Assembly: GCA_002239025.1 (NCBI GenBank)
Contig: MPNM01000001.1
Location: 186,001-250,000, forward strand
Direction of reading: 5' to 3'
Length of the DNA: 64,000 bases
Origin: Chloroflexi bacterium bin125
GTDB lineage: Bacteria; Chloroflexota; Dehalococcoidia; Bin125
Below the pieces are notes generated by a model. It had not been told where the DNA came from, did no database searches, and saw nothing but the letters and a program-made list of their open reading frames with translations. Positions within the stretch are counted from its first letter, which is position 1, and each line of letters opens with the position of its first letter. Shown here piece after piece: positions 7,685 through 63,156 of the stretch. A program made the position numbers and the translations under genes.

Positions 7685-10009
7685 ATGTTACCTGTAGCGG
7701 CTGACGCTGCCCGTTTGTTTCGTTACCGGATGCTTGGTGTGATTGCCTTGGCCTGTTGGGCCGCTGCGCTGGCAGTGGCCTGCTCGGGCGACGAGGAACC
7801 AGTGCAGCAACCAGAGGCGGCGCCGAGTCCGCCGGCTGACGCTCAACCAGCCGTACAGCCACCGCCATCCGAAGAGCAACAAGTCGCAGAGCCTGAACCG
7901 ACGACACGATCTCCTGGAGATCCGGCCCTGCTGCTGATCGCCGAATCGTCGGCGCTCGAGCACAACGGCTATTGGGAACAGGCGCTGAGTGTCCGCGAGT
8001 CTGCCATTGCAACGGGTGCATCGCTTGATGCGAACGCCCTGACGTCGCTCCAGCTTGATCGCGTGCGGTTGCTGCTGAAGCTCGATCGACCGTCGGACGC
8101 GATGGCCGCCCTGGGCGAGATCGCCGGATTCCTCACCTCCGAGCAAATCCGACGGCATGCTCTGTTGAGAGCGCAATCGGCGCTCATGCTGTCTCAGGTC
8201 GATGTGGCGCTCGAAGCGATGAAGGAATATGTGAACTCCGACAGTCCCGCCTGGGCGATGATCGCGCTCGAGACGGCGCGGACGTTGCAGCGTGCCGGAA
8301 GAGGCGAGGAAGCGATCGAGTGGGCCGAACGAGCGCTCGGCGGCATGTTGGCGTTCCAGGATCGATTGCGGGCCATCCACCTGGTGGCAACCGAACTGGA
8401 CATCGCCGGCGAGGTCGATCGCGCACTGGATCGTTATGACGAATTGCTGGAGCTCTCGCCCTGGCGGGACGACCATGCAGCCGCGTGGCTTAGGACCGGC
8501 GCTCTGAAGCGGGATCTCGGCGATATTGACGGGGCTCGAGAGGCGTGGAGAACATTGGTCGACGATTATCAGGACTTCGCTGAGAGCTCGGAGGCGTTGG
8601 CCCTGCTGATCGACTCAGGCGCAGACGTCGATCAGCTCACGATCGGCAGGATCCGCTTCAACGAGCAACTCTGGGTCGAGGCTCGCAGCGCGATGCTGAA
8701 TGTGTTGGGTAGCTCTGGCGATGTCGCGGAGCAGGTCGCCGGCGAGTACTACATCGCAGCTATTCATCAGGCCAATGATGACCGCCAGAGCGCAGCGCTC
8801 GGTTATGTCGCGGTGATCGGACGTGATGCCTCGCATCCGCTGGCAGCGGAGTCTGCGATGCGACTGGCAGAGTTTGATCTTGCCGACGGCGATCAGGACT
8901 CTGCAGAGGCGTACTGGCGGCAGGTGATGGAGGATCACCCGCAGCACGATCGCGCGGTCGAGGCTGCGCGACGATGGGCGTCGATGGCGGTGGGTCGCGG
9001 GCAATGGCCATCGGCCGCTGAGCGTTTCCGCGACGCTGCCAATATCGGCGCGGACTATTGGGGTGCCGACGTTCGCCAGGAGTTCCTCTACTGGTCGGCC
9101 CTGATGCATCGAGAAGCGGGCGACGCGGAGACGGCCGCCGATCTCGCTTCCAAGGTGATCGACATCAATCCGGTTGGCTTCTACGGACTTCGCGCGGCTG
9201 CCCTGCTGGACCTCGAAGCTCCGGTGGTACTCGACATATCAATCGACGAATGGCTGACGCGATTGACGGGTGAGGCGGATTCTCCTGAGTCGGGTCTCAC
9301 TGGAGCGGCAGAATGGCAGGCCGCGCGTGATCTACGGCAGGGCGGGTTTGATGACGCCGCCGACCGGATGTTGCAGACCTGGATCTCCACGCTGGCGCTT
9401 GATCCCTGGGCTCTGGCGCAGGCGTCACAGTTTCTCGCTGAGCAGCGGGAATTCTCGGGCTCGGCGCGGGCGGCGGCGCAACTGCTGAATGTCTTTGGGC
9501 TCTACTGGACCGACGCTCCGGCCGAACTCCTGCGTCTCGCCTATCCACAACCCTGGCCGGATGTGATGACGTTGCACTCGACAGCGGAAGGAATCGATCC
9601 GCTGCTGCTCTGGTCGTTGATCCGACGGGAGAGTTTCTACGACGCATCCGCGGAGGGGCTGGCCGGGGAGGTCGGTCTGACCCAGGTGATTCCGCCGACG
9701 GGCTCGGATATCGCGGCCGGACTGGGGATTGAGTATCAGCACACCGACCTGGCGCGGCCCGAGCTGTCGATTCGTTTCGGCGCCTGGTATCTGGCGCGGC
9801 AACTGGAGGGCTTCTCGAACGAACCGATCATGGCGCTGGCCGCCTACAACGCTGGTCCCGGCAATGCAGCGCGCTGGGAGGATGATGCCGCGCTCGCCGG
9901 GCCCGACGGCTTCCTCGCCGCACTCGACTTTGAATCGACAAGAATGTATGTTCGATTCGTGATCGAGTCGCTCGCCGCATATCAGGCCGTGGCGCAGAGC
10001 GGGTCGTGA
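7685..10009 (+). CDS. Lipoprotein soluble lytic transglycosylase (Slt70-like) with TPR-rich N-terminal region
   Basis: About 774 residues. The N-terminus is a lipoprotein-type signal ending at the cysteine of AACSG-like LAVACSGDE, followed by a Pro/Gln/Glu-rich linker. Residues ~80-600 form helical repeats resembling TPRs, as in the Slt70 doughnut. The C-terminal SLT domain has IRRESFYDASAEG with the catalytic Glu, GLTQVIPPTG (usually GLMQLMP), and ALAAYNAGPGNA. The enzyme cleaves peptidoglycan to anhydro-muropeptides outside the cytoplasmic membrane. The frame stays open far upstream, but that part is antisense to alr. Starts at 7685 or 7730 both give a usable signal peptide. Confidence 0.88.
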   Translation: MLPVAADAARLFRYRMLGVIALACWAAALAVACSGDEEPVQQPEAAPSPPADAQPAVQPPPSEEQQVAEPEPTTRSPGDPALLLIAESSALEHNGYWEQALSVRESAIATGASLDANALTSLQLDRVRLLLKLDRPSDAMAALGEIAGFLTSEQIRRHALLRAQSALMLSQVDVALEAMKEYVNSDSPAWAMIALETARTLQRAGRGEEAIEWAERALGGMLAFQDRLRAIHLVATELDIAGEVDRALDRYDELLELSPWRDDHAAAWLRTGALKRDLGDIDGAREAWRTLVDDYQDFAESSEALALLIDSGADVDQLTIGRIRFNEQLWVEARSAMLNVLGSSGDVAEQVAGEYYIAAIHQANDDRQSAALGYVAVIGRDASHPLAAESAMRLAEFDLADGDQDSAEAYWRQVMEDHPQHDRAVEAARRWASMAVGRGQWPSAAERFRDAANIGADYWGADVRQEFLYWSALMHREAGDAETAADLASKVIDINPVGFYGLRAAALLDLEAPVVLDISIDEWLTRLTGEADSPESGLTGAAEWQAARDLRQGGFDDAADRMLQTWISTLALDPWALAQASQFLAEQREFSGSARAAAQLLNVFGLYWTDAPAELLRLAYPQPWPDVMTLHSTAEGIDPLLLWSLIRRESFYDASAEGLAGEVGLTQVIPPTGSDIAAGLGIEYQHTDLARPELSIRFGAWYLARQLEGFSNEPIMALAAYNAGPGNAARWEDDAALAGPDGFLAALDFESTRMYVRFVIESLAAYQAVAQSGS

Positions 10010-10121
10010 TCATGCAGGAGGGGCACCATGACGATTGGAACGCTTGACAGGATTAATCTCGGCATTGGGGGCACCTGACGCTCCGAATCGCAGGCAACGC
10101 GAGGTTTGCCCGGCGCTGGCG

Positions 10122-10127
10122 TATACT
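10122..10127 (+). promoter_or_regulatory. Possible -10 element for rpmH
   Basis: TATACT lies 68 bases before the rpmH start in the 185-base gap after the transglycosylase gene. No good -35 hexamer sits at standard spacing, so this is a weak call. Confidence 0.25.
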
Positions 10128-10194
10128 TAGTGCTACTTGTCCTGCATTCTTCGTCCATCGGGCTTGTGTGTCCCGTGATGTGTTGAGGGATTTG

Positions 10195-10335
10195 ATGCCG
10201 AAACGCACGTATCAACCGAAGCGAATACCGCGCAAGCGGGAGCATGGGTTCCTCAAGCGAATGTCTAGCCGCGGCGGGCGGGCGGTGCTGAAGCGCCGCC
10301 GTGCCCGAGGTCGGCGACGATTGACGGTCGTCTGA
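10195..10335 (+). CDS. rpmH: 50S ribosomal protein L34
   Basis: 46 residues, very basic: [20 protein letters not shown], then a [20 protein letters not shown] block, the L34 signature. GAGGGA precedes the ATG at normal distance. It is the first gene of the conserved rpmH-rnpA-yidD-yidC-khpB order. In many bacteria dnaA lies just upstream; here a transglycosylase gene takes that place. Confidence 0.95.
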
Positions 10336-10466
10336 ACGTCGGAAGTACCCTTTTGTCTTCCTGCTTGCCTGTACAGGCGTCGCGTGCCGTGAGGTATAGC
10401 GCCGGTTGTCTGGCAACACGGACGGCAAGACGCCAGTCAAGACTTCAAGTAGGGCGTGGCCGTCCA

Positions 10467-10922
10467 ATGCCCACGATCCAGCGACACCCATATCGCGATC
10501 AGCGATTGCGCCGCAAGTCCGACTTTGACGCCGTGTTCCGCAATGGGATTCGGGCGTCTGGCGGCGTATTGGCGCTGCGCGTCGCTCCTCGAACGGAAGG
10601 CCCCGACGATGATCCGTGCCGATTCGGATTTGCGATCAGTTCGCGTCTGGGCGGCGCGGTGGTGCGCAACAGGATTCGTCGGCGCTTGCGAGAGTCGGTC
10701 AGAAGACTGAATCAGAATGCCGATTGCCAGGGGTTGGATGTCGTGGTGATCGCTCGCAATGGCGCCGCCGAGGCGGACTTTGCGGAGCTGAACTCGACGT
10801 TACGTCGACTTGTGGGCCGATCGGTTCGGCAACTTCGGCAACTTCGGCCACTTCAGCCACGTCGGCCACGTCGTCAAGGCAGACAAAGCGCTGGAGCGGC
10901 TCGATCGGTTGGTGGGTCGTGA
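10467..10922 (+). CDS. rnpA: Ribonuclease P protein component
   Basis: 151 residues. It assists the RNase P RNA in cutting the 5' leader from pre-tRNA. Family features are LRRKSDFDAVFRNG at the N-terminus, RFGFAISSRLGGAVVRNRIR with the RNR motif, and the following RRRLRESVRR helix. The C-terminal ~40 residues form an Arg/Gln-rich extension (RQLRQLRPLQPRRPRRQG) longer than in most homologues. The start at 10467 is chosen because the conserved part begins right after it. The stop overlaps the yidD start (GTGA). Confidence 0.93.
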   Translation: MPTIQRHPYRDQRLRRKSDFDAVFRNGIRASGGVLALRVAPRTEGPDDDPCRFGFAISSRLGGAVVRNRIRRRLRESVRRLNQNADCQGLDVVVIARNGAAEADFAELNSTLRRLVGRSVRQLRQLRPLQPRRPRRQGRQSAGAARSVGGS

Positions 10923-11203
10923 CCAGGTCGTTGGTGCGGAGGATCGGGCAGGTTGTGAGTTCGTTCGTTGTGTTCGTCCTGGAGGGCTACCAGAAGCTGA
11001 TCTCCCCGTTCTTTGGAGCGATGGGATCGCAATGCCGGTTTGAGCCGTCGTGCTCGCAGTACATGATTGACGCGGTGCGGTCGCGCGGGGCGTTGGTGGG
11101 TGTAGGAATTGGCATCTGGCGGCTGGCAAGATGCAATCCGTTCAATCAGGGTGGGTATGACCCCGCTCCTCCGAGTCAGGATGTTTCACGTGAAACAATC
11201 TGA
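10919..11203 (+). CDS. yidD: Membrane protein insertion efficiency factor YidD
   Basis: 94 residues. The GTG start overlaps the rnpA stop in GTGA, the usual coupling for this pair. The family core is clear: LEGYQKLISPFFG, CRFEPSCSQYMIDAV with paired Cys, and RLARCNPFNQGGYDP. YidD is a small membrane-peripheral protein that helps YidC insert proteins. The last codons run through the first parS site. Confidence 0.93.
   Translation: MTRSLVRRIGQVVSSFVVFVLEGYQKLISPFFGAMGSQCRFEPSCSQYMIDAVRSRGALVGVGIGIWRLARCNPFNQGGYDPAPPSQDVSRETI
11182..11197. promoter_or_regulatory. parS: parS centromere site 1
   Basis: Exact 16-bp palindrome TGTTTCACGTGAAACA, the parS consensus bound by ParB in many bacterial phyla. 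It lies inside the 3' end of yidD, 3.6 kb before the parA start. Confidence 0.95.
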
Positions 11204-11228
11204 CCGGTCGATCGGGAGTGTTGCTGCT

Positions 11229-12488
11229 GTGGCTAACGCTGCGCGACGACTGACGGCGAAATTGTTTCACGTGAAACAATTCGGCGGCCCGTTCAGGACC
11301 GGTCTCGGGACGCGCCGACCGGCGATCCTGGGTTTCTTGCTGATCCTCGCCGTGCCCCTGATCGTTGCCTGCGATGTCGCCGACCAGCCCGATGGCTGGG
11401 CAGCGCCGACACCCGACCCGATCGAGCCGGAAACGCGGTTGATCGCGCCAACCGGCGATGACCAGGTCATCGCATTGCAACTGCTAGACGGCAACCTGGG
11501 TTCCGCACTCTGGGAATTTCCCGACGATGACGGCCGCTTCCCCGGCCTGGACTCGGAGATTGAGCCGGTCGCGTTCTATGCGGACCCGGTCTGGGTGGAA
11601 TCGACCGATGAATGGCTGTTTGCCGGCTACTCCGACGGCATCCTTTATGCCGTTCGGCGCGATGGCGAGTCTGCGCGCGTCGTCTTCGATAGTGAATCAC
11701 GGCTCGTCGCCGACCTCGTTGTCGATGGCAGCATCGTCTATCTCGCCGACACGACCTATCGGGTCCACGCGGTAGACATTGAGCAGCCCGGAGAGGCGAT
11801 CTGGACGTGGGACGGCAACTCCGAGCTACAGATCTGGGGCGGTCCGGCGCTGGTCGAAACCGAACGCGGGAAACTGCTGATCGTCGCCGGCCTGGATGGT
11901 CGCGTGACTGCCATCAATGTTGAAGGTGAGCAGATTGGCAGATCGGCGTGGCAGGTGGATATCGAAGGCGGCATCGCAGGATCGGTCACTGCTGCTGACG
12001 GGATCGTCTACGTGGGCAGTCTGGATCGCACGATCTACGGTCTCGACGCTGCGACCGGTGGACAGGTCTGGGCGACACAGGCGTCGCATTGGTTGTGGGG
12101 AACGCCGCTGATCCACGACGGCGTCATGTATGCCACCGACCTGCGCGGCAATGTCTATGCGATTGACGCTCTTACCGGCGCAAAGCGTTGGCTGCAGCCG
12201 TATGCAGCCGGAGATCGGATTCGCGCCAGGCCGCTGTTCGTTGAGCAAGAAGCAGAAACCGGCGATGGCGGCGGAATACTGGTGATTGTGGCTCGCGGCG
12301 GCATGATTCATCAACTCAGTGCGTCCGACGGCGCTCCGCTCCGGCAGTTCCAACTCGATGGAGCCAAGGACCTGATGGCCAACGCCATCCTGCGCGAGGA
12401 CCGGATTCTCGTCAGCGATGAGGATGGGGTGCTCTACGCCGTGCTGTTGGGCGCAAACCAGGCCGTCAGGCTGTATCCGCAGAATTAA
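11229..12488 (+). CDS. PQQ/beta-propeller lipoprotein
   Basis: About 419 residues. The N-terminal hydrophobic stretch (AILGFLLILAVPLIVAC) ends in a lipobox, so the protein is probably anchored outside the membrane. The rest has repeats of a PQQ-type beta-propeller: GYSDGILYAVRRDG, GLDGRVTAINVEG, GSLDRTIYGLDAATGGQVWA and TDLRGNVYAIDALTGAKRW. The position before yidC recalls BamB-like propellers, but no outer membrane is indicated. The start is uncertain: ATG 11181 (inside parS 1), GTG 11229 (GGGAG upstream, chosen) or GTG 11271 (inside parS 2). With the first start both parS sites are coding and each reads FHVKQ. Confidence 0.75.
   Translation: MANAARRLTAKLFHVKQFGGPFRTGLGTRRPAILGFLLILAVPLIVACDVADQPDGWAAPTPDPIEPETRLIAPTGDDQVIALQLLDGNLGSALWEFPDDDGRFPGLDSEIEPVAFYADPVWVESTDEWLFAGYSDGILYAVRRDGESARVVFDSESRLVADLVVDGSIVYLADTTYRVHAVDIEQPGEAIWTWDGNSELQIWGGPALVETERGKLLIVAGLDGRVTAINVEGEQIGRSAWQVDIEGGIAGSVTAADGIVYVGSLDRTIYGLDAATGGQVWATQASHWLWGTPLIHDGVMYATDLRGNVYAIDALTGAKRWLQPYAAGDRIRARPLFVEQEAETGDGGGILVIVARGGMIHQLSASDGAPLRQFQLDGAKDLMANAILREDRILVSDEDGVLYAVLLGANQAVRLYPQN
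11263..11278. promoter_or_regulatory. parS: parS centromere site 2
   Basis: A second exact TGTTTCACGTGAAACA, 81 bases after the first and extended to a 20-bp palindrome by flanking AT/AT (11261-11280). It lies in the first part of the lipoprotein gene frame or in its leader, depending on the true start. Confidence 0.95.
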
Positions 12489-12493
12489 CTACG

Positions 12494-13453
12494 ATGGACA
12501 TAATCGACTTCATCTGGAACGACATTTTGATTGGCCCGATCATGAACGGGCTAATCGTGATCGCACACTCCGTGAGCGACAACTACGGGGTTGCGATCAT
12601 TCTCTTCACGCTGATCGTGCGGGTGGTGACATATCCGCTGACGCTGCGTCAGCTTCGGGCAACCAAGGGCATGCAGGACATGCAGCCGCGGATGCAGGAG
12701 ATCCAGAAGAAGTACAAGGATCCGAAGCGTCGCCAGGAAGAGTTGATGAAGGTCTACCGCGAGGCGGGCTTCAATCCTCTCGGTTGCCTCTGGCCACTCC
12801 TGGTCCAGATGCCGATCTGGATCGCGCTCTACCAGGTATTGCGACGGACGCTGGGCGACACGCCCGAGCAGTTGCTGCGCCTGTCGTCCGACCTCTACGA
12901 CTGGGCGTACATCACGTCGGCGATTCCGATCAATCGTGATTTCCTCTTCTGGGACCTGGGATCATCGTCGATCGAGCAGTCATTGCCGCTGGCGATCATG
13001 GTCGGTGTGACGGCGTACATCCAGCAGAAGGTCTCGACGGCCCGGATGGGTCCGCGCGATGAGCGCTCGGAGTCGATGAACCGCACCATGCTCTGGATGA
13101 TGCCGTTCATGTTTGGATTCTTCACATTGCAGGTACCGGCCGGTCTCGGTCTGTACTGGCTGGTGACGTCAATTTTCACGATTCTCACGTCGTACTACTA
13201 CTACTTCTACCGACAGGGACTGAAGTGGTCGTGGAAGTGGCTGCTGTCGTCCGAACCGCTGCCGACACCAGCGGCAGCAGCTGCTGCGGCCGGAGCCGGC
13301 GGCGGAACAGCAGTCGTCGCTGCGACAGCCGAAACGGTTGAAGAAGGCGATGAGGAGTCGTCGGAGACGCCTGCGGAACGCCCACAGCGGCGGCAGACCA
13401 GCGCAGCGCGACGCCGACGGCAACGGAGGCGACGAGCAAATCGGTCGCGTTGA
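12494..13453 (+). CDS. yidC: Membrane protein insertase YidC/Oxa1
   Basis: 319 residues, Gram-positive/Oxa1-like size without the large periplasmic domain. It inserts membrane proteins, alone or with Sec. TM1 carries the conserved Arg (AIILFTLIVRVVTYPLTLRQ), followed by the amphipathic loop QPRMQEIQKKYKDPKRRQEE and the C1 hairpin GCLWPLLVQMPIWIALYQVL. Three more helices follow, ending at ILTSYYYYFYRQG. The tail has an Ala/Gly run and then an Arg-rich end (ARRRRQRRRRANRSR) that probably binds ribosomes or rRNA. It starts 5 bases after the lipoprotein gene. Confidence 0.93.
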   Translation: MDIIDFIWNDILIGPIMNGLIVIAHSVSDNYGVAIILFTLIVRVVTYPLTLRQLRATKGMQDMQPRMQEIQKKYKDPKRRQEELMKVYREAGFNPLGCLWPLLVQMPIWIALYQVLRRTLGDTPEQLLRLSSDLYDWAYITSAIPINRDFLFWDLGSSSIEQSLPLAIMVGVTAYIQQKVSTARMGPRDERSESMNRTMLWMMPFMFGFFTLQVPAGLGLYWLVTSIFTILTSYYYYFYRQGLKWSWKWLLSSEPLPTPAAAAAAAGAGGGTAVVAATAETVEEGDEESSETPAERPQRRQTSAARRRRQRRRRANRSR

Positions 13454-13544: not shown

Positions 13545-14651
13545 ATGGCGAACAGGGATGCAATTGAGCAGTCGGGACGCTCCGTCGATGACGCGGTGCA
13601 ATCGGCGCTACGCCGACTCGGACTCTCTCGCGCTCAGGTAGAGGTCGAAGTGCTGGAGGAGGGCCGAACCGGCATTTTCGGTATCGGTCACGCGCAGTCG
13701 ATGGTTCGTGTGACGCCCCTCTCCGGAGTTCAAGGGGGGAATCGTGGATCGGATGCGCCGGCTCTGCCGAGAATCGATGACTATTCCGATCTGACCGAAC
13801 TTGAACCTGGTCAGCGGGGTGGACGGGGTGGTCGGGGCGGAAGAGGTGGAGGTTCCGGCTCGAGCCGCCGGCCCAGCGGCCAGCGTGCGGTCGTGCAGCC
13901 GTCGGATCAGGAAAGCGCCACCGCCGATACAGGACAGCGCGAGGTCCAGCCGGATCATCGTTCGCGCTCTCGTCCTCGATCAGTGGCGCCCGCTTCCGGC
14001 GGTCGACGAGATCGTGGGGACCGGGGCGAACGCGGCGATCGTGGGCGCGGTGGTAGCGGCGGTCGTGGCCGCGGGAGAGAACGTGAGTCGTCGCGAGAGC
14101 GCCAGCCGGCTCGAGAGCCGCTAGGACCGTTTGAGTTGCTAGCCGATCCCGACTTCGAACCGAACAGCGATCCGAAACAGTTTGCAGTCGAGGTGCTGAC
14201 TGACATTGCGCACCAGCTCGGCTTCGACGTGGATGTGACCGCGCGCGAGCCGCAGACGCCGATGGACGGCCTCGGACATGCGGTGTCCGTGCTTGACGTC
14301 ACGCCGGTTGGCGACGAGGATCTGGGACTGCTGATCGGTCGCCACGGGGCGCATGTGGCGGCGTTGCAGTACGTGGTCAACGTCATCGTCAGTCGCGCGC
14401 TGGAGGGCAACAATCCGGTCACTGTCGATGTCGACGGCTACCGTCGCCGCCGTGAGACCGCGCTCGAAGAGATGGCCCAACGAGCGGCGTCGGAAGTGCG
14501 CGATCGCGGCGAACCGGTCACCCTGGGTGTGATGCCAGCCGCCGAACGGCGGATCATTCACCTGCAATTGCAGGACGACCCGGAACTGAAGACCGAGTCT
14601 TACGGCGAGGGCACATCGCGGCGCGTGCGAATTCTGTACCGTGACGACTAG
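13545..14651 (+). CDS. khpB: RNA-binding protein KhpB (Jag/EloR) with RG-rich linker
   Basis: 368 residues. Order of domains: Jag_N (SVDDAVQSALRRLGLSRAQV, EEGRTGIFGIGHA) at ~10-65; a long linker ~85-195 packed with GGRGGRGGRGGG, RSRPRS and GGRDRGDRGERGDRG runs; a KH domain with LLIGRHGAHVAALQYVVN; and an R3H domain at the C-terminus (RRRRETALEEMAQRAA, then PAAERRIIHLQL). The family binds RNA and affects cell-wall synthesis and elongation. The start ATG has GGAGAAG before it; the open frame further upstream is a shadow of yidC. The RG-rich, probably disordered linker is much longer than in Firmicute Jag. Confidence 0.9.
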   Translation: MANRDAIEQSGRSVDDAVQSALRRLGLSRAQVEVEVLEEGRTGIFGIGHAQSMVRVTPLSGVQGGNRGSDAPALPRIDDYSDLTELEPGQRGGRGGRGGRGGGSGSSRRPSGQRAVVQPSDQESATADTGQREVQPDHRSRSRPRSVAPASGGRRDRGDRGERGDRGRGGSGGRGRGRERESSRERQPAREPLGPFELLADPDFEPNSDPKQFAVEVLTDIAHQLGFDVDVTAREPQTPMDGLGHAVSVLDVTPVGDEDLGLLIGRHGAHVAALQYVVNVIVSRALEGNNPVTVDVDGYRRRRETALEEMAQRAASEVRDRGEPVTLGVMPAAERRIIHLQLQDDPELKTESYGEGTSRRVRILYRDD

Positions 14652-14754: not shown

Positions 14755-15561
14755 GTGAGTGTGGTTGCGGTGGCGAATCAAAAGGGCGGCGTCGGCAAGA
14801 CGACGACCACCGTGAATCTGGCTGCCGCAGCGGCGGCGCAGGGTCATCGCACGCTCGTGCTCGACGCGGACGCGCAGGCGAACGCCACATCGGCGCTGGG
14901 CGCCGCTACGAGCGGCGCGTTTCTGTACGACGCGCTGCTGGGTCAGGTGGAGTTGAGCGACTGCATTGTGCCGACCGACTGGCCGCGGCTCGAGGTCGCC
15001 CCGTCGTCGATGGACCTGGTCGGGGCCGAGCTGGAACTCGCAACTCGGCCAGACCGCGAGTACGTCCTTCGAGGCACGTTGTCGGGTGTTGCAGACTCGT
15101 ATGACTTGATCCTGGTGGATTGCGGCCCGTCGCTGGGTTTGATGACGCTGAACGCGCTCGCCGCGTCGGACGGAGTGATAGCTCCGGTGCAGTGTGAGTA
15201 CCTGGCGTTGGAAGGGTTGTCGGCACTGCTCGAGACGATTCGTCGCGTGCAGATGCATTTGAATCCCGGGTTACAGCTCCTGGGCGTCGTAGCCACGATG
15301 TATGACGGTCGGACGCGGTTGTCACAGGACGTTGCGGCGCAGTTGCAGTCGCATATCAGTTCTATGTTTGATACGATCATCCCACGTTCGATCCGCCTCT
15401 CCGAGGCGCCGAGCCATCAGCGTCCGATTATCGACTACGCGCCGACATCTCGCGGGGCGGAGGCGTATCGGGAGCTGACGGAGGAGTTGTTGAGCCGCCT
15501 GTCAGCGCTTCCGCCGTCGTCTCTATATCGCGGCGGCACGCTGGATGGAGTATCGGCATGA
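14755..15561 (+). CDS. parA: Chromosome partitioning ATPase ParA/Soj
   Basis: 268 residues with a GTG start. It has the deviant Walker A KGGVGKTT (residues 10-17), the A' box LDADAQANAT, and Walker B LILVDCGPSLGLMT. ParA forms dimers on DNA that pull ParB-parS complexes apart. The gene overlaps parB by four bases (ATGA), and both lie near two parS sites. A longer N-terminal DNA-binding part, as in plasmid ParA, is absent. Confidence 0.95.
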   Translation: MSVVAVANQKGGVGKTTTTVNLAAAAAAQGHRTLVLDADAQANATSALGAATSGAFLYDALLGQVELSDCIVPTDWPRLEVAPSSMDLVGAELELATRPDREYVLRGTLSGVADSYDLILVDCGPSLGLMTLNALAASDGVIAPVQCEYLALEGLSALLETIRRVQMHLNPGLQLLGVVATMYDGRTRLSQDVAAQLQSHISSMFDTIIPRSIRLSEAPSHQRPIIDYAPTSRGAEAYRELTEELLSRLSALPPSSLYRGGTLDGVSA

Positions 15562-16526
15562 GTGACACCACGGCGCCTCGAGTGAGCCCGTTCGGCAGTC
15601 GGCCACTGTCAGGGTTGGCAGAAGACCGGAAGCGGCGATTGGGCCGAGGTCTCGATTCACTGATCCCGGCTGCGAAGCAGGATGAGACCGCCGAATCGCA
15701 GTTGCGAGCGCCGATCGGCGCGATTTCACCGAATCCGTCGCAGCCGCGGCAGGAGTTTAATTCCGATTTGCTGGAAGAGTTGGCGGCGAGCATTCGCGAA
15801 CACGGCATCTTGCAACCGCTTCTGGTGCAGCGGACCGAAGCGGGCCAGTACGAGTTGATCGCGGGAGAGCGGAGATGGCGGGCGGCGGGATTGGCTGGCC
15901 TGGACACGGTGCCGATCGTCGTTCAAGAGGAAGCGGCCGACGATGACGAAGAGCGCTTGACACTGGCCCTGGTTGAAAACCTGCAGCGCGAGGATCTAAA
16001 TCCGATTGAGATGGCGACAGCCTTTGAACAGCTCTCGGACTCGGGCTGGACGCAAGAGAAGATCTCCACGGAGGTCGGCAAGAGTCGCGCCTCGGTGGCC
16101 AATGCGATCAGATTGCGCCGGTTGCCGAACGTTGTGCAGTCGATGATCGCTGCCGGATCGCTCAGCGAGGGTCACGGGCGAGCGCTCCTGGGCGCGCCGG
16201 AGTCTGAGCAGGTCCCGCTGGCGGAGCGCGCGCTTAAGTCGGGTTGGACCGTGAGGAAGCTTGAGGATGTCGTGCGAGTCCTTGGGGAACAATCATCGGA
16301 GGCGCCGAGCAGCCCAGAGCCTTCGGCGACAGTGTTTCGCGCGGTGCAGATGTTGGAGTCGGCATTGGGGACAAAGGTCGAAGTGCGCGTCGGAGCCAAT
16401 GGACCGAGCGGCGGCGGACGAATCGTCGTGCATTGGTACGACGAGGAACAGCTCGGTGCGCTGGCATCGCAAATGAGCGGCGCGATGGTGGATGCGGACG
16501 AGGATGCTGAGGAGTTTGGAATCTAG
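15558..16526 (+). CDS. parB: Chromosome partitioning protein ParB/Spo0J
   Basis: 322 residues. A variable N-terminus with KRRLGRGLDSLIP is followed by the CTPase/N-domain (QPRQEF, ELAASIREHGILQPLLVQ, and the GERRWRAA motif), the HTH region (LTLALVENLQREDLNPIE, then TQEKISTEVGKSRASVANAI) and a C-terminal dimer domain. It binds parS, loads as a CTP-dependent clamp, and recruits ParA and SMC. It is translationally coupled to parA. Confidence 0.95.
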   Translation: MSDTTAPRVSPFGSRPLSGLAEDRKRRLGRGLDSLIPAAKQDETAESQLRAPIGAISPNPSQPRQEFNSDLLEELAASIREHGILQPLLVQRTEAGQYELIAGERRWRAAGLAGLDTVPIVVQEEAADDDEERLTLALVENLQREDLNPIEMATAFEQLSDSGWTQEKISTEVGKSRASVANAIRLRRLPNVVQSMIAAGSLSEGHGRALLGAPESEQVPLAERALKSGWTVRKLEDVVRVLGEQSSEAPSSPEPSATVFRAVQMLESALGTKVEVRVGANGPSGGGRIVVHWYDEEQLGALASQMSGAMVDADEDAEEFGI

Positions 16527-61832: not shown

Positions 61833-63156
61833 GGCTGCCGAATCGCTGGTTCGAGACCAATCGCTGTGGACGCCTGATGGAACTCCGGGTTGCGAGATTT
61901 GTGGTGGCGCGGGGTATGTCCGAGTGGCGAGACCGGTTGGTGATCCCAACTTCGGGCGGGTGCAACCGTGTGAATGTCGGCGAGCTGAAGAGGAAGCAAG
62001 GGCGGCAGAGCGATTGCAGCGGCTGAGCAACCTGGGGCCGCTATCGGATGCTCGGTTGGCGGACGATGAGACGGCGAGCGGTCCAGGCAAGACGATCACC
62101 GAGTTTGCCGATGCGGAAGATGACGAGCCTGGCTGGTTGTTGATTACTGGGCCGGCAGGATCGGGACGTACACGGTTGTCGGCGGAGATGGCGAATCGGC
62201 GGATTGCTGGGGGTCGGGCTGCGCTGTACTTCGTCGTCGCTGACCTGCTGGATCGGCTGCGATCGGCGATGAATGCTCCGAGTGGGGGCGATCTGTCGTT
62301 CGCGTTGTTGTTTGAGCATGTGCGCGATGCGCCGTTTCTGATTCTTGACGACCTGGATTGCATCTCGCCCACGGATTGGGCTCGGGAGAAGCTGTTCCAG
62401 TTGCTCAATCATCGGCGGAATAGCGGTCGGCGGACGGTGCTGGTCTCGGAAGCGGCCGATCTGTCGGCGATTGGCTTGCAGTCGTTTCTGACGTTGGATC
62501 TGGAGCGGTTGGAGTTGGGCGGCGCGGTGTCGGGCGGGCGGTATCGGGAGTTTGGCGGGATGACGGAGTCTGTGCTGGACCAATACTCCTTTGACGGGTT
62601 CCGCGAGGAGGGACTGGGTGGCCGAGGAGACGCCGAGAATCTGGCGACGGTGAAGTCGACGGTTGAGGAGTGGGTGTCGCATCCGGCGGGCTGGCTGACC
62701 TTGTTCGGCGGTACGGGTGTGGGCAAGACGCATCTGGCGGCCGCTGCCGCCAATGATCGGTTGGCTGTTGGCGACAGCGTGTGTTTCGCCGTGGTGCCGG
62801 AGTTGTTGGATGCGTTGCGAGCGTCGTATCGGGATGAGGGCGAGGCCTCGTTTGAGGCGATCTTTGCGTCGCTCAAGGAGGTTGACTTGCTGATCCTGGA
62901 CGATCTCGGCGCGCACCAGTCGACGGAATGGGCGAGCGAGAAGCTGTATCAGCTCTGCGCGTCGAGATATCTGCGCAGCGCGCCGACGCTGATCACCATG
63001 AACGTGTTGCCCGATGACCTGGATCCGCGGTTGGCGTCACGGCTACTGGACAGCCAACGGGGGCTTGCGCTGCACGTGCGAGCCAAGGACTACCGGACTG
63101 ACCAGGAGGCGCGGCAGATTACTCCGTCGCGGCGTCGACCTCAGCGGCGGGGGTGA
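61756..63156 (+). CDS. Helicase loader with zinc motif and two tandem DnaC/DnaI-like AAA+ domains
   Basis: 466 residues. N-terminal zinc motif CEICGGAGYVRVARPVGDPN with a later PCEC pair (Cys 46, 49, 72, 74). AAA-1 (~125-260): P-loop GPAGSGRT (132-139) with Arg in place of the usual Lys; Walker B FLILDDLD; box DWAREKLFQLLNHR; its arginine-finger region is not seen. AAA-2 (~305-445): GGTGVGKT (318-325), Walker B LLILDDLG, EWASEKLYQL, sensor TLITMNVLPDDLDPRLASRL. AAA-2 looks active, AAA-1 probably does not hydrolyse ATP. Loaders deliver DnaB to DNA. The ATG has GGAGGG before it; the frame further upstream is a shadow of the dnaD-like gene. Confidence 0.85.
   Translation: MEEMQRLGPLLAGWSHRATGTSSESEAAESLVRDQSLWTPDGTPGCEICGGAGYVRVARPVGDPNFGRVQPCECRRAEEEARAAERLQRLSNLGPLSDARLADDETASGPGKTITEFADAEDDEPGWLLITGPAGSGRTRLSAEMANRRIAGGRAALYFVVADLLDRLRSAMNAPSGGDLSFALLFEHVRDAPFLILDDLDCISPTDWAREKLFQLLNHRRNSGRRTVLVSEAADLSAIGLQSFLTLDLERLELGGAVSGGRYREFGGMTESVLDQYSFDGFREEGLGGRGDAENLATVKSTVEEWVSHPAGWLTLFGGTGVGKTHLAAAAANDRLAVGDSVCFAVVPELLDALRASYRDEGEASFEAIFASLKEVDLLILDDLGAHQSTEWASEKLYQLCASRYLRSAPTLITMNVLPDDLDPRLASRLLDSQRGLALHVRAKDYRTDQEARQITPSRRRPQRRG

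Follow-up and report, generated by a model that had tools for sequence, protein, structure and literature searches.

Why do two perfect copies of the centromere site parS lie at the start of a lipoprotein gene, and do they act there as DNA, as RNA, as peptide, or as a switch for neighboring genes? We addressed this question in a 64,000-nucleotide stretch of the genome of Chloroflexi bacterium bin125 (the window; positions are counted from its first letter). Both sites have the sequence TGTTTCACGTGAAACA, a perfect palindrome to which no strand is assigned; site 1 spans 11182-11197 and site 2 spans 11263-11278. A sequence-only reading of the window had described identical sites at 11182 and 11263, 81 bases apart and about 3.5 kb before parAB. 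Our analysis bore this out, in that both sites are perfect at these coordinates and the start of parA lies 3.57 kb 3' of site 1. The same reading had put the pair next to yidD and inside or at the start of the lipoprotein gene. The latter placement holds, both sites being in frame in the lipoprotein open reading frame (ORF), while the former needs correction: site 1 is in fact within yidD (VSRETI, stop codon 11201-11203).

The site pair in its genome

The sequence-only reading had proposed a genome-wide search for the 16-mer. In the 3.68-Mb assembly (66 contigs, 96.7% complete), we found two perfect copies of TGTTTCACGTGAAACA, so the site pair, confined to 97 bp, makes up all of the perfect copies present. 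The whole assembly also holds a single copy with one mismatch (C51:98112) and a single copy with two mismatches (C50:18810), and a reversed-pattern control gave 0 matches in it. By a hand estimate from base composition (~63% G+C), about 2e-4 perfect copies would be expected per genome. Dinucleotide shuffles of the window gave a mean of 0.17 matches at up to three mismatches, with two or more matches in 1 of 100 shuffles.

The genes around the pair are all on the + strand, in the order rpmH (10195-10335), rnpA (10467-10922), yidD (10916-11203), a PQQ/BamB-like beta-propeller lipoprotein gene (11181-12488), yidC (12494-13453), jag (13545-14651), parA (14755-15561), and parB (15558-16526), the start of which is 4.4 kb downstream of site 1. 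The names rpmH and rnpA were assigned by eye, on the basis of sequence and gene order. The last codons of yidD (PF01809; its start codon is an assumption) contain site 1, yidC matches PF02096, and the jag product has Jag_N and R3H domains. The lipoprotein gene has a proposed start at ATG 11181 or GTG 11190 and a lipobox, LIVAC, recognized by eye. With a genus-only alignment as the query, a lipoprotein 74 to 83% identical was found in 13 contigs of metagenome-assembled genomes (MAGs); a class-wide alignment contained no conserved stretch.

The parB product carries the sole match to the ParB helix-turn-helix (HTH) family (PF17762) in a profile search of the assembly. It contains ParB_N and HTH_ParB domains and a GxxRxxA-type motif, GERRWRAA. 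This motif binds CTP in ParB, which loads at parS as a CTP-dependent clamp. The product aligns to solved ParB structures, and its parS-type specificity residues are R..A..R..G; the R and G are kept, in GKSR and GH.R, at positions equivalent to 173 and 201 of Caulobacter ParB, as matched by eye. According to the portion of Jalal et al. available to us (PMC7383237), R173 and G201 are absolutely conserved in ParB and altered in Noc. We therefore rejected the candidate identity of the system as Noc with its NBS sites, since the genome's single ParB-type HTH carries R and G in place of the Noc-type Q173 and R201. Contig C12 also encodes an SMC-type protein, in a 1142-amino-acid frame that contains both ends of SMC_N. 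The sequence tests that we applied all identify the 16-mers as parS.

In the 400 of 515 kb of the contig examined, GC skew shifts twice; the sharper shift, near 180 kb, is some 17 kb away from the sites. A second skew minimum falls near 115 kb, and dnaA is at 30 kb of the same contig, 167 kb from the sites. Given the two minima and the distant dnaA, GC skew does not fix the position of the origin. Two further observations concern this region of the genome. The one-mismatch site at C51:98112 (L003:1501-1516), which is 99 kb from the pair and 15 to 20 kb from the second skew minimum, reads FHVKQ in frame in an ORF that we take, from reading its sequence by eye, to be prmA-like. In addition, a 575-amino-acid frame of the window has a DnaA-family-like match at 62626-63042 (E 1.4e-7), distinct from the main dnaA.

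Frames and start codons at the junction

A perfect parS 16-mer is open in two of its three frames, one reading VSRET and the other FHVK, the latter with an xTG and a GTG as possible starts; the third frame meets a TGA within the site. The overlapping yidD and lipoprotein genes of this genus occupy both of the open frames at site 1. The C-terminal YidD codons over site 1 read QDVSRETI and the stop ends at 11203, and the lipoprotein frame over the same bases reads ATG-TTT-CAC-GTG-AAA-CAA (MFHVKQ). Over site 2, the lipoprotein frame gives LFHVKQ. The earlier statement that both sites encode FHVKQ if the gene starts at ATG 11181 is thus confirmed by frame reading. AAA accounts for 1 of 21 lysine codons in the stretches counted, yet it is present in both sites.

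We compared the junction in a genus set of 15 genomes, our own included. All 14 genomes that hold the lipoprotein gene have a junction parS; the fifteenth (G003) gave no lipoprotein match, and its single parS, with one mismatch, is on a 6.9-kb contig without these genes. Across the genus, the mean pairwise identity of site 1 is 0.97, against 0.30 to 0.49 in the flanking 16-mers. Six of the 14 genomes, including our own, have two junction sites, and eight have one only. The spacings of the six pairs (81, 69, 69, 84, 93, and 186 bases) are each divisible by three, and the sites fall in the lipoprotein frame. This phase is supportive rather than decisive, because with two open frames any one pair would be in phase by chance about half the time, and because these genomes share ancestry. 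Outside the genus, pairs are in phase in G069 (48 bases), G107 (36), and G051 (48) and out of phase in G035 (163), and the clusters of sites before the lipoprotein ORF in family f33 show no such phase.

Site 1 offers two start candidates, ATG 11181-11183, made of an A and the first two bases of the site, and the central GTG 11190-11192; site 2 offers TTG 11262-11264 and GTG 11271-11273. A Shine-Dalgarno (SD)-like TCAGGA on the + strand (11176-11181), which also encodes part of YidD, lies 8 nucleotides before the site 1 GTG. We scored SD sequences by pairing energy against a generic anti-SD. Pairing before the site 1 GTG was -4.1 to -5.9 kcal/mol in 13 of 14 genus genomes and -1.5 in the other (G004). 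At site 2, it was +1.7 to -2.1 kcal/mol, with none as good, in all six two-site genomes. Values for the ATG or other xTG at the site 1 edge ran from +0.1 to -6.3 and were as good as or better than the GTG values in G009, G014, G011, and G004; counted for the ATG proper, this was so in 3 of 14. At this edge, 11 of the 14 genomes have an ATG completed by the first two bases of the site, one has a GTG, and two have an ACG. Also in line with a start there, an A precedes the first FHVK-frame site in 24 of 29 cases, compared with 10 of 29 for the mirror base. This A may instead stem from an extended ATG...CAT palindrome, since a T follows the site as well in 9 of 15 class sites. In two genomes of one other genus (G081 and G134), the ORF has no start codon besides those borne by parS. 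Together, the SD-like sequence, the in-phase pairs, and the lack of another start in these two genomes suggest that the lipoprotein ORF likely starts inside site 1, with ATG and GTG not separated by the SD values. In this window, there are also in-frame starts upstream within yidD (TTG 11109, GTG 11151, and ATG 11157), which are possible alternative starts for its lipoprotein.

Two nearby palindromes could also act as RNA: they might pair as a 16-bp hairpin, or fold singly, and hide the lipoprotein start until the ribosome translating yidD opens it. The window RNA folds with both sites paired (z -3.6), two other two-site genomes of the genus gave z values of -2.6 and -3.4, the latter with site 1 partly cut off, and the yidD stop ends 6 nucleotides past site 1 in the aligned genus loci. 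However, any two copies of one palindrome would pair likewise, folding is weak in two genomes with one site (z -2.1 and -0.6), and the single junction site of eight genus genomes leaves no partner copy at the junction. Furthermore, the extended stem does not beat shuffles, which did as well in 107 of 500 cases for cells paired, 307 of 500 for covariation, and 70 of 500 for changes on both sides. With pairing and covariation no better than in shuffles, we rejected the hairpin as a conserved regulator and regard RNA control of the start as quite unlikely.

The junction across the class

We surveyed 148 genomes drawn from the class, Dehalococcoidia. The yidC gene was found in 132 of these, 8 of them being our own genome and its congeners, and 2.9 kb upstream of yidC (less at contig ends) was taken from 120 non-genus genomes. 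Two genomes in which the yidC match begins near a contig end (G047 and G088) were left out of the survey. Two were added later: G134, which has a perfect site and ParB, and G070, in which neither a site nor a ParB match was found. Nine of the 120 regions, four of them cut by a contig end, were dropped for want of an identifiable yidD-before-lipoprotein pair, leaving 111. With 111 of the 120 regions carrying the PQQ/BamB-like lipoprotein gene behind yidD, this gene is nearly universal in the class. Among the dropped regions, G096 has a parS between yidD and yidC with the lipoprotein gene absent, and G124, in which ParB is present, has two sites with two mismatches and no yidD found.

Sites were called parS-like at up to two mismatches to the degenerate consensus TGTTYCACGTGRAACA. 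The junction was defined as running from 45 nucleotides before the end of the yidD profile match to 30 nucleotides past the start of the lipoprotein profile match, with bounds set after the first loci had been seen. By this definition, the junction is 5.2% of the bases in the 111 regions and holds 52 of the 56 parS-like sites upstream of yidC, distributed over 26 regions. The figures were 33 of 37 sites in 21 regions at one mismatch or fewer and 17 of 20 sites in 12 regions at zero mismatches, and first-order Markov resampling (five rounds) yielded 0.2 sites. Over whole genomes, a parS within one mismatch occurs in 37 of 148. Some class genomes are rich in parS, with 36 (G101), 13 (G069), and 8 (G061) sites within one mismatch on many contigs; none of those in G101 is at the yidD junction, but four are clustered beyond yidC, no more than about 2 kb from it.

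We then compared the junction site with the presence of ParB. Genomes were scored as ParB positive when the best HTH match had an E value of 1e-28 or lower, a cut chosen after the list had been seen, at the jump from 2.8e-30 to 1.4e-15. Such a strong match is present in 43 of 148 class genomes, and 58 of 148 match at 0.001. Of the 102 genomes with completeness of 90% or more and contamination of 5% or less, 47 match at 0.001 or lower. Many genomes of the class thus seem to be without ParB. In the non-genus regions, the junction site was found in 25 of 31 ParB-positive and 1 of 80 ParB-negative regions (Fisher value 4e-18, ignoring descent). The one site without a ParB match is in G149. Six genomes have ParB and no junction site: G022, G062, G043, and G101 carry parS elsewhere, and G026 and G073 have no parS within one mismatch anywhere in the genome. 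In a quick tree of RnpA, YidD, and lipoprotein sequences (119 rows), each trait changes 7 times, with one independent pair on supported branches. The co-occurrence is thus clumped by descent and gives no significant independent test.

The frame in which the site is read differs between families: FHVK is the commonest, others read VSRET, and in others the site is outside the lipoprotein ORF. Its geometry relative to the lipoprotein start is not fixed either, since it may lie before, in, or across that start. In four genomes (G049, G144, G035, and G110), the yidD stop and a parS-borne ATG combine as TGATG, and in five others (G040, G121, G128, G087, and G082) the yidD stop is the site's own TGA; the stop is doubtful in G107, G152, and G020, where the profile hit left the true frame. 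One junction parS (L181:1700, in G128) has its central GTG changed to ATG, which gives ATGA, a possible stop/start overlap of yidD and the lipoprotein gene. A constant place under a changing frame is the mark of selection on the DNA. The converse, that the conserved element is the peptide, with FHVKQ as the n-region of the signal peptide, could draw on FHVK being the commonest frame and on the fact that a basic n-region suits a lipoprotein signal peptide. Against this stand the families that read VSRET or have the site outside the ORF, the nearly invariant codons, rare AAA included, and the absence of the junction site from 79 of 80 ParB-negative regions. Given the frame changes between families, we rejected conservation at the peptide level, which we find scarcely credible.

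Expression, known systems, and meaning

The reading that we consider highly probable, judged from sequence comparison, is that the pair are ordinary chromosomal ParB loading sites in a permissive coding overlap, where they probably supply the lipoprotein start codon. The 16-mers would load ParB, which acts as a CTP-dependent clamp in known systems, and the loaded sites would label the region near the origin for segregation by ParA and for the loading of SMC. They would have settled where the 3' end of yidD meets the 5' end of the lipoprotein gene because almost any short peptide may be tolerated there, and site 1 would supply the start as the ATG formed with its first two bases or as its central GTG. 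An effect of ParB on expression is possible and is not needed to explain the data.

Such an effect would be central if ParB at the sites controlled lipoprotein and yidC expression, by a roadblock to RNA polymerase or by silencing, and if the position had been selected for that. The sites are indeed 1.2 to 1.3 kb upstream of yidC within a co-directional gene cluster. In the parts of the literature available to us, intergenic parS3 and parS4 of Pseudomonas aeruginosa repress adjacent genes (PMC7022226), and control of genes has been proposed in Mycobacterium bovis BCG, where one parS overlaps the gidB promoter and another is in parA (Casart et al., PMC2346475). However, 85 of 111 genomes keep the yidD-lipoprotein-yidC order but have no junction site. 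These genes can therefore do without the site, the geometry of which relative to the lipoprotein start is variable. Moreover, a search of 9900-12600 revealed no sigma-70-like promoter, although such a search is a weak test for this phylum, and in Bacillus subtilis, genes adjoining parS are unchanged without Spo0J, as far as the accessible part of PMC7022226 reports. We therefore hold selection of the position for expression control to be improbable.

Outside the class, we drew 29 perfect-parS loci from 79 positive genomes among 201 of other Chloroflexota. No yidD or yidC match was found within about 1.5 kb of these loci at the sensitivity used, and a parA or parB match was present at 9 of the 29. 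In family f83 (L090 to L094), a perfect parS lies at the 5' end of parA in the FHVKQ frame with a GTG at its edge. From this arrangement, parA of f83 may start in parS; L091 and L094 have a later possible parA start too. A broader proposal would treat parS as a dual-purpose junction that, as start, stop, or peptide, repeatedly ends yidD and begins the lipoprotein gene (and begins parA in f83), with ParB occupancy tying translation or transcription of the lipoprotein gene and yidC to the state of segregation. We regard this proposal as speculative and rather unlikely.

Ordinary ParB loading sites within genes would have precedents. The parS cluster of Caulobacter lies in different genes from those here. 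Like our pair, it consists of clustered sites inside genes, which are origin-proximal in Caulobacter and may be so here; it differs in that ParB occupancy was measured there (PMC5815017, in the part accessible to us). The available text of PMC2346475 describes a similar pattern in Mycobacterium, where the orf60K(yidC)-jag-gidB-parAB region has two parS 16-mers ahead of parB; one is at gidB, in its promoter or 5' part, and the other is within the coding region of parA. In contrast, our pair occupies the junction of yidD and the lipoprotein gene, ahead of yidC, and two overlapping genes read through site 1. P. aeruginosa also has parS upstream of and near genes, but parS3 and parS4 are intergenic and the sites here are coding (PMC7022226, as accessible in part). 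Thus, parS within genes or at gene starts is already known from Caulobacter (PMC5815017) and mycobacteria (PMC2346475), in the portions of those papers available. We found no report of parS at yidD in the open-access literature searched (titles and abstract openings), and neither FHVK nor VSRET occurred in the open-access papers listed among the matches. As far as that literature tells, the recurrent yidD/lipoprotein place in this class and the two-frame use of one site are new.

These findings give a recurrent centromere address for an almost uncultured group. They also provide a clean case of DNA-level selection inside genes, in which a 16-bp element is fixed and the protein frame over it changes. 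The results suggest that MFHVKQ or MFHVKH N termini and VSRET C termini may mark parS, and such termini would aid gene-start annotation and centromere mapping in MAGs. Finally, the presence and absence of ParB and junction parS in the class form a natural comparison for the effect of parS on neighboring genes.
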